A stretch of DNA of 20,717 nt from a virus. Of the stretch, positions 3,073-6,635 are shown in pieces (the first letter of the stretch is position 1; each line of letters begins with the position of its first letter). Below the pieces are notes generated by a model. The model made no database searches, was not told the DNA's origin, and saw nothing but the letters and a program-made list of their open reading frames with translations. The DNA is taken from the IMG/VR virus record IMGVR_UViG_3300038701_001743, positions 1 to 20,717 of that record. The stretch is one strand, 5' to 3'. A program made the position numbers and the translations under genes.

Positions 3073-3311
3073 AACCACAACCACCACAAAACAGGACTAT
3101 AAAAAATGGAAAGTCAGTAGTAAAAACGTGCAAAAATTGTTTTTATAATCAAAACGACACTTGCGCTCTTAGTGGGTTGCATTATAAGGCTGAAAGACTA
3201 TTAAAAGGTAGTTGTAGTGCTGATTTTGATGGATGGTTAAAAAAAGAAACAACAATAAATAAAATAATAAATAAATTAAAACAATGCATAGTAATTATAA
3301 AATATTTTTAG
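3069..3311 (+). CDS. Cys-rich small protein, probable zinc binder, 80 aa
   Basis: The start overlaps the resolvase stop (ATGA), indicating coupled translation. The motif CKNCFYNQNDTC, a later GSCSADFDGW and the intervening hydrophobic/basic helix give four cysteines (near residues 21, 24, 32 and 49) that could bind one metal. Similar short Cys-rich proteins often accompany resolvase genes in Bacteroidetes phages, but no defined function is known to me. The C-terminal 15 or so residues (IINKLKQCIVIIKYF) overlap the next gene by 28 bases and may be dispensable. Confidence 0.65.
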   Translation: MKPQPPQNRTIKNGKSVVKTCKNCFYNQNDTCALSGLHYKAERLLKGSCSADFDGWLKKETTINKIINKLKQCIVIIKYF

Positions 3312-5885: not shown

Positions 5886-5960
5886 ATGAAATACATAAAA
5901 AAAATAATTAAGTTTTTAGAGGTATGCGGTAAAGGTGCGGCATATGCTTTAAGGAACTAA
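5886..5960 (+). CDS. Possible 24-residue cationic peptide ORF
   Basis: ATG at 5886 opens a 24-codon frame reading MKYIKKIIKFLEVCGKGAAY and ending LRN. The first half is an amphipathic, Lys-rich helix. The ATG follows a G-rich stretch (CGGGGGAC) unlike the A-rich leaders used elsewhere, so translation is uncertain. It may simply be part of the structured RNA region that follows. Low confidence. Confidence 0.3.
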   Translation: MKYIKKIIKFLEVCGKGAAYALRN

Positions 5961-6150
5961 AAACATAAAGGTGTTTACTTGGAAAAAATCTTTACTTGTC
6001 GGTAAGGTCGCTAGTCGTAATGCTTGGTAGAAGTAGACAAGAATCATATCATACTGCCTAATTACGATAAGACTGCGGGGAGGAATAACGCCCAAGATTT
6101 GGTCGTAACAAATCGAATTAAAACAAGTTGTGTTTGCAGCTTGTTTTTTT
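5961..6150 (+). ncRNA. Candidate structured non-coding RNA between terS and terL
   Basis: No gene-like frame covers about 5961-6150, yet composition changes: I count 53 G+C in the 130 bases 5991-6120 (about 41%), well above the flanks. Several complementary segments are visible. CTTGTC (5995-6000) pairs with GACAAG (6036-6041), and TCGTAAT (6015-6021) with ATTACGA (6061-6067); the two helices interleave as a pseudoknot. GCTTGG (6022-6027) can pair with CCAAG (6092-6096), which can instead form a local CCAA/TTGG hairpin. GTCGTAA occurs twice (6014, 6102), so 6061-6067 has two alternative partners. The region ends in a terminator at 6121-6150. It matches no RNA family I can name; I looked for tmRNA, RNase P, group I intron and common ribozyme signatures without success. 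No own promoter is clear, so it may come from the 3' end of the 5457 transcript. Confidence 0.5.
6121..6150 (+). terminator. Rho-independent terminator
   Basis: AAACAAGTTG and CAGCTTGTTT form a stem of about 10 bp (one G-U pair) around a TGTTTG loop, continuing into a run of T. It ends the candidate RNA and is followed 10 bases later by the promoter for the receiver-like gene. Confidence 0.75.
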
Positions 6151-6160
6151 GTTAAAATAT

Positions 6161-6191
6161 TTGGTTATATAGTTTTTAAGTGTTAGATTTG
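6161..6191 (+). promoter_or_regulatory. Promoter, -33 TTG / -7 TAGATTTG
   Basis: TTG at 6161-6163, 20-base spacer, TAGATTTG at 6184-6191, then TAG. The extended upstream element GTTAAAATATTTGG is present and partly abuts the T-run of the terminator. It drives the receiver-like gene at 6217. Confidence 0.75.
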
Positions 6192-6216: not shown

Positions 6217-6635
6217 ATGAAAAAATTACTTTGGTTAGACGATACAAGGAATCCTTATATCAACGATGAAAAAAAGTACCTAAAGGTAGGCATGGTAAAC
6301 AATTCAATGTAAACTGGGTAATAAATTACGAGCAATTTGTTAAATGGATAGAGTTGTACGGCTTACCTGATTCAATTTCCTTTGACCATGATTTACATGA
6401 AGAACATTATACACCTGAGTATTTCTGGAATAATTATATCGAAAGCAAAAAATTTCAAGAATGGAAGAAGCAATTTTATAAAGAAAAGACAGGAGCTGAT
6501 TGCGCTAAATGGCTTGTTAATTACTGTAATAACAACAAAAAAGAACTACCTTGCATTTATATACACTCAGCTAATCCAGTAGGTGTTGACTTTATAAAAG
6601 AAGAGTTAGAAAAAATAAAAACAAATGAATTTTAA
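6217..6635 (+). CDS. Cyclic-phosphate-processing receiver-like (cREC-type) protein, split by a -1 frame change
   Basis: The first frame starts at 6217 (MKKLLWLDDTRNP...) and runs into a stop at about 6309. The rest of the domain continues in the -1 frame, open from 6270 to 6635, with FNVNWVINYEQFVKWI, GLPDSISFDHDL and CIYIHSANPVG. Together these show the LDD-x-R-x-P start, FDHD acidic core and HSANPVG end of cREC receiver-like proteins, whose role is not settled but has been linked to cyclic or terminal phosphates. The shift falls at A_AAA_AAG (6270-6276), in frame with the upstream part; a -1 slip gives one 139-residue product. A short TACC/GGTA hairpin could follow at once. Programmed frameshifting, a sequencing or natural indel in seven A's, or a decaying gene all remain possible. 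It has its own promoter. Confidence 0.6.

Follow-up and report, generated by a model that had tools for sequence, protein, structure and literature searches.

A Conserved RNA with a Predicted Pseudoknot Fold in a Flavobacteria-Type Phage and Its Relatives in Phages, Proviruses and Flavobacteriales Chromosomes

Introduction

The ToxI RNAs of type III toxin-antitoxin systems consist of tandem repeats ahead of a toxin endoribonuclease gene. They are, like the RNA considered here, pseudoknotted RNAs of phages and plasmids that sometimes lie directly before a gene; the present RNA differs from them in having a single copy of its motif in the window (the whole 20.7-kb stretch of viral DNA analysed) and no downstream protein shared among its copies. 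The SAM-II long loops riboswitch (RF01726), whose listing covers Bacteroidetes and marine sequences, shares the H-type pseudoknot with it, as do other riboswitches of that fold, but the window RNA matches no Rfam model and precedes no consistent gene. The 6S-flavo (RF01685) and Flavo-1 (RF01705) RNAs are likewise structured RNAs of Bacteroidetes, with covariance models that do not match the window RNA. Also comparable is the Rfp series of small RNAs in F. psychrophilum, from the same bacterial family. They are short (median 176 bp) and independently transcribed, and some are conserved and strongly structured; TAnnTTTG promoters are associated with them. The available part of that description mentions neither phage copies nor a pseudoknot (PMC9723704). 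The series, compared here by description only, could include a relative of the window RNA.

Comparison of six copies indicates that window positions 5972–6093 on the plus strand encode a conserved, structured, non-coding RNA predicted to fold as a pseudoknot. When Rfam 15 models were run against the window and the five relatives, up to E-values of 1–10, only unrelated chance matches were returned and none at the RNA, in keeping with the initial annotation, which had found it to fit no familiar RNA family; ARAGORN found no tRNA or tmRNA gene in the window. By these comparisons, which extend to the Rfp RNAs by description only, it is a new RNA family of the structured small RNA kind, absent from Rfam 15, in a group of bacteria and phages whose non-coding RNAs are little understood.

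Setting of the RNA in the Phage Record

The record carries genes for the small terminase, the large terminase, the portal and the major head protein, together with flavobacterial-type TAnnTTTG promoters (consensus as given in PMC9723704), and belongs to a Flavobacteria-type phage. The initial annotation had seen a G+C-rich stretch between the terminase genes, devoid of gene-like frames and closed by a good terminator, and each of these elements was borne out. Gene annotation of the record confirms the position, an ORF check found no gene-like frame across 5961–6150, and G+C content reaches 44% in 5990–6093 against 29.5% for the whole window, about 1% of 104-nt windows being equally high. The terminator-like hairpin has 12 bp followed by a T run and is the sole match, rightly placed (Table 1); shuffles of the 3.5-kb region yield about as many such hairpins. 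Judging from a promoter-like box, the next transcript appears to start shortly downstream of it. A promoter-plus-leader motif, TAnnTTTG(T/A)AGTGTAAT, recurs in the window at 1489, 4994, 6184 and 8650, ahead of several small groups of phage genes. The gene at 6217–6635, resembling a cyclic-phosphate processing receiver (cREC-like; PF20274, phrog_1479), seems to carry a frameshift that puts the N-terminal part out of frame with the remainder, through sequencing error or decay.

Taken singly, the window copy is unremarkable. The fold z-score of the stretch is −1.97 with the terminator and −0.93 without it, many other stretches of the window score more strongly, and its minus strand folds no better than its plus strand. 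Among Markov controls, repeated 7-mers were equally frequent in 24%, 6-bp helices in 11% and 7-bp helices in 19%. Single-sequence evidence is thus mostly within chance and could not settle the question; the RNA stands above chance because its relatives show compensatory changes. A covariance model built from one sequence, combined with a motif search, can therefore bring to light a genuine RNA with unremarkable folding energy.

Table 1. Features of the RNA locus and its flanks (window coordinates, plus strand)
Feature	Positions	Strand	Remarks
Micro-ORF, 24 aa (MKYIKKIIKFLEVCGKGAAYALRN)	5886–5960	+	Belongs to a conserved micropeptide family, distinct from the RNA family
P1a, pseudoknot helix, 5' strand (UGUUUACUU)	5972–5980	+	9-bp helix with 6031–6039
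P2 hairpin, CUUUAC-UUGUCG-GUAAGG	5990–6007	+	Hardly varies among the six copies; one pair covaries between A-U and G-C
Linker, UCGCUA	6008–6013	+	UNGCUA in all copies
P3a, UCGUAAU	6015–6021	+	Pairs with 6061–6067
Possible P4, GGUAG (6026–6030)/CUGCC (6054–6058)	6026–6058	+	Tentative; encloses P1b
P1b, pseudoknot helix, 3' strand (AAGUAGACA)	6031–6039	+	Within the P3 loop in all copies
P3b, AUUACGA	6061–6067	+	Pairs with P3a
Conserved AAGACUG (RAGACKG)	6069–6075	+	GAGACGG in L239
P5 region (GGGGAGGAAUAACGCCC)	6077–6093	+	GGAAUAA in the window copy
Hairpin with second GUCGUAA (6102–6108) in its loop	6096–6114	+	Window-specific; not found in relatives
Intrinsic terminator-like hairpin	6120–6147	+	Sole match, rightly placed
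−7 box TAGATTTG of the next transcript	6184–6191	+	Consensus from PMC9723704

Relatives of the Window RNA

Neither the window copy nor its relatives gave anything notable in DNA similarity searches of phages and plasmids, exact window patterns matched in IMG/VR at chance level only, and blastn and nhmmer found no copy of the RNA at the TerL-relative loci. A covariance model built from the window copy alone (R1), run over 84 loci, retrieved one match besides itself (21.7 bits), at positions 2218–2041 on the minus strand of L162, a 56-kb IMG/VR virus record that had entered the sample for its micropeptide gene and not for the RNA. Both helices P2 and P3 differ from those of the window by compensatory changes, P2 reading CUUUGC-UUGUCG-GCAAGG and P3 CAGUUAU/AUAACUG. 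A search of Flavobacteriales genomes with the P2 and linker motif yielded four more copies, L237 (genome G130), L239 (G597), L240 (G480) and L241 (G701); the reversed pattern, run as a control, gave no match at up to two mismatches. The family is known from these six copies, and the tools for searching it are a second model, R2, and the pattern CTTTRCTKGTCGGYAAGGTNGCTA.

The RNA is rare. Within the sampled genus of G130, 4 of 390 genomes carry it, and a search of 131 of these with the model yielded no diverged copy with a credible score; it is absent from 40 genomes of the genus of G074, from the TerL-relative phage records examined and from phages JQ, PTm5 and pT24. Four weak model matches (L248, L249, L250 and L252) were rejected on inspection: none has an intact invariant motif, and all lie in sequence that resembles coding DNA.

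A model made from the five relatives, with the window left out, retrieved the window copy at 59.6 bits (E 1.6e-10), the next match scoring 9.7 bits; part of this score is expected, since the relatives were collected through the window's own motif. From this recovery, together with the conserved helices described below, it follows that the window RNA is a real member of a conserved family with a predicted pseudoknot.

Structure and Covariation

All six copies share one order of elements: P1a, P2, the linker, P3a, a P3 loop of variable length holding P1b, then P3b, RAGACUG and the P5 region. P2 follows the consensus CUUURC-UUGUCG-GYAAGG, with the loop UGGUCG in L239. P3 forms seven of seven pairs in every copy, in a single register, and four of its pairs have changed on both sides. 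In the joint alignment of P2 and P3, 100% of cells are paired and five pairs show double changes; the covariation score of 0.395 compares with 0.177 in shuffles, none of 500 reaching it, and pairing drops to 33–53% when the registers are slid. The result is the same when the window copy is left out. The compensatory changes that the initial annotation proposed to seek among homologues are thus present, and its central claim of a structured non-coding RNA is upheld. P4 remains tentative, its observed mean being reached by 86 of 3000 shuffles. In the relatives, P5 is a hairpin with GGAAAGA in its loop; L237, L239, L240 and L241 have a U run after it.

P1 crosses P3 and so lies outside the covariance model, for which reason it was tested separately. 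Taken as the best uninterrupted helix, it has 8–11 bp per copy, with P1a 8–10 nt before P2 in all six. Its sequence differs in every copy and its pairing is rebuilt each time: UGUUUACUU/AAGUAGACA in the window, UUCGACUCAG/UUGAGUCGGA in L162, GCCAUUAAUCG/UGAUUAAUGGU in L237, UAUUCCAU/GUGGAAUA in L239, AUGUGCUAAUA/UAUUGGCACAU in L240 and GUGUCAACA/UGUUGACAC in L241. The mean score of 20.6 compares with 13.7 when strands are swapped between copies and with a maximum of 17.9 in 2000 shuffles. P1 and P3 constitute independent evidence, since four of the five relatives were found through P2 and the linker only. Sequence is free to vary in P1 and P3 so long as pairing is kept, whereas the P2 hairpin, the linker and RAGACUG keep their sequence.

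A pseudoknot had been proposed from the window copy by interleaving a 7-bp helix, UCGUAAU/AUUACGA, with a 6-bp helix, CUUGUC/GACAAG. Both exist, and the 7-bp helix is conserved as P3; the helix that crosses it in all copies is P1, and the 6-bp pairing was rejected, CUUGUC being the invariant P2 loop region and its partner GACAAG not being conserved. The duplicated GTCGTAA, read at first as giving one strand two alternative partners, does have its second copy in the window. Such alternative pairing is not conserved: the reading as an RNA switch is unsupported because the other five copies lack the duplication and a repeat of this size is to be expected by chance.

No conserved protein frame across the stretch is shared by the copies. 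The constancy of P2 and the linker could nevertheless reflect the remnant of a small protein, with a frame SLLVGKVA passing through both; this frame is kept in all six copies and the differences in P2 and the linker are synonymous. Such a peptide is very unlikely because four of the six copies have no start codon and a stop lies two to three codons upstream in L239 and L240. The pairing of P1 and P3, moreover, falls mostly outside the conserved block and covaries.

Genomic Contexts and Probable Mode of Action

The initial annotation had taken the RNA for a phage RNA. Copies do lie in phages and proviruses, but two of the six (L240 and L241) are chromosomal genes and the family is not phage-specific. 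These two occupy the same chromosomal place, with the downstream gene convergent to the RNA. This gene looks like a UbiA-type prenyltransferase from its sequence, with no Pfam match, and a 2OG-Fe(II) oxygenase gene (Pfam match for the L241 copy) is nearby. A −7 box precedes P2 by 62 nt in L241, where it is perfect, and by 47 nt in L240, where it has one mismatch; in both, the P5 hairpin and its U run are terminator-like. The layout is that of a stand-alone gene with a putative promoter and terminator. In L240, the RNA gene lies between the two copies of a 78-nt direct repeat (1328–1405 and 1657–1734; 76 of 78 positions identical), which corresponds to the 3' end of the prenyltransferase-like gene; the repeat is absent in L241, and an insertion or local duplication in L240 is possible.

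L237 and L239 lie in prophage-looking regions, whose genes include head-protease, HNH and methylase-type ones, and the ORF behind the RNA differs between the two. The L239 RNA precedes two similar genes resembling the targets of diversity-generating retroelements and a reverse transcriptase. This provirus-like region (L239 2639–2726, L242 51–1595) likely holds a diversity-generating retroelement or similar system, as the two similar genes with a GSRLC motif and the reverse transcriptase gene suggest; an RT-17 RNA match there is below threshold (34.4 bits against a cut-off of 40.4). The L162 RNA begins directly after a perfect TATATTTG box 26 nt before P2 and has an unrelated ORF downstream and no U run. 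The window copy follows the micro-ORF, lacks a strong promoter of the TAnnTTTG type (no clear box between 5000 and 5990) and is separated from the next gene by the terminator and a new promoter. Judged by such signals, L241 has a putative promoter and terminator of its own and L240 largely so, L162 has the box, and the window copy has the terminator.

The place of the window copy between the two terminase genes would suit a DNA-packaging RNA or a cis packaging signal working with the adjacent terminase. We consider this role highly improbable: the other copies do not lie beside terminase genes, two being chromosomal, the six as a set show no recurring link with terminase or portal genes, and the RNA is missing from the closest TerL relatives that were examined, Tenacibaculum phage JQ among them.

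A cis-acting leader, either a riboswitch or a protein-responsive attenuator, would have the pseudoknot sense a ligand and the P5/U-run hairpin end or permit transcription of the next gene. L162, L237 and L239 directly precede an ORF, with a start codon at most about 30 nt behind the RNA, and in L237, L240 and L241 the P5 hairpin and U run right behind the pseudoknot resemble an expression platform. Such a leader is nonetheless unlikely: the genes downstream of L162, L237 and L239 are mutually unrelated, L240 and L241 offer no cis target because the next gene is convergent, and in the window a terminator and another promoter lie between the RNA and the next gene; the copies do not recur before one functional class of genes, as those of a riboswitch would. 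Less probable still is an element in the 3' UTR of the upstream operon, protecting or processing the mRNA that runs from the small terminase to the micro-ORF. The stop of the micro-ORF 11 nt before P1a, the terminator downstream and the want of a clear promoter box would agree with it; the perfect −7 boxes 26 and 62 nt before P2 in L162 and L241 speak against it, and no relative sits behind a micro-ORF.

On balance we favour, from these comparisons, a discrete trans-acting small RNA common to host and phages. The fold is conserved independently of the neighbouring genes, and trans action is favoured because hairpin, linker and RAGACUG persist next to flanking genes that vary, and because two copies have no downstream gene. 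The molecule has a core of about 120 nt and, in the window, probably ends at the terminator; P1 joins a segment ahead of P2 to the loop of P3, giving a predicted H-type pseudoknot. We infer that this pseudoknot is a scaffold on which the invariant elements are offered to a partner, either protein or RNA, and hence that the RNA would act in trans. In some Flavobacteriales it is a separate gene of the chromosome, and in phages it lies in operons; on this conjecture, the phage copies would most likely imitate, titrate or replace the host RNA during infection. Against trans action stand the start codons close behind three copies, as in a cis-acting leader, the window copy, which has no strong promoter and may be the end of an upstream operon mRNA, and the small number and rarity of the copies. 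It is plausible, and we put it forward tentatively, that the family is an undescribed class of pseudoknotted RNA, a host regulator in some Flavobacteriales that several unrelated phages have captured to imitate or titrate the partner of the host RNA. Hijacking of a host RNA by phages is directly testable here, because host chromosomes and several different phages and proviruses carry the RNA.

Micropeptides and Other Observations

The micro-ORF upstream of the window RNA belongs to an unannotated family of micropeptides of about 24–37 aa, in which the conserved C terminus (C/G)(A/G)KGASYA(L/I)(R/Q/N/K)(N/H) abuts the stop. A literature search found no publication on it and there is no Pfam or PHROG match. 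Besides the window (5886–5960, plus strand), its loci are L002 6555–6632, L129, L130, L153–L181, L147–L151 and L223–L236; L131 was rejected as a chance match of the micro-ORF pattern. Hosts include Tenacibaculum phages JQ, PTm1/PTm5 and pT24, about 25 IMG/VR contigs and Flavobacteriales chromosomes; chromosomal genes form clusters of up to nine copies, many of which have a promoter-like box and a terminator to themselves, and 12 of 60 genomes of one genus carry them. Behind a further phage micro-ORF of the family, which ends at 3111 on the minus strand of L157, the non-coding sequence looks structured and contains GCTATACA motifs several times over; it gives no match to the window RNA model. 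In Tenacibaculum phage JQ (L002), positions 2400–2480 hold a near-perfect inverted repeat (CCTAACCGTAT...ATACGGTGTTAGG), and similar CCTAAC/GTTAGG arms surround neighbouring small ORFs.
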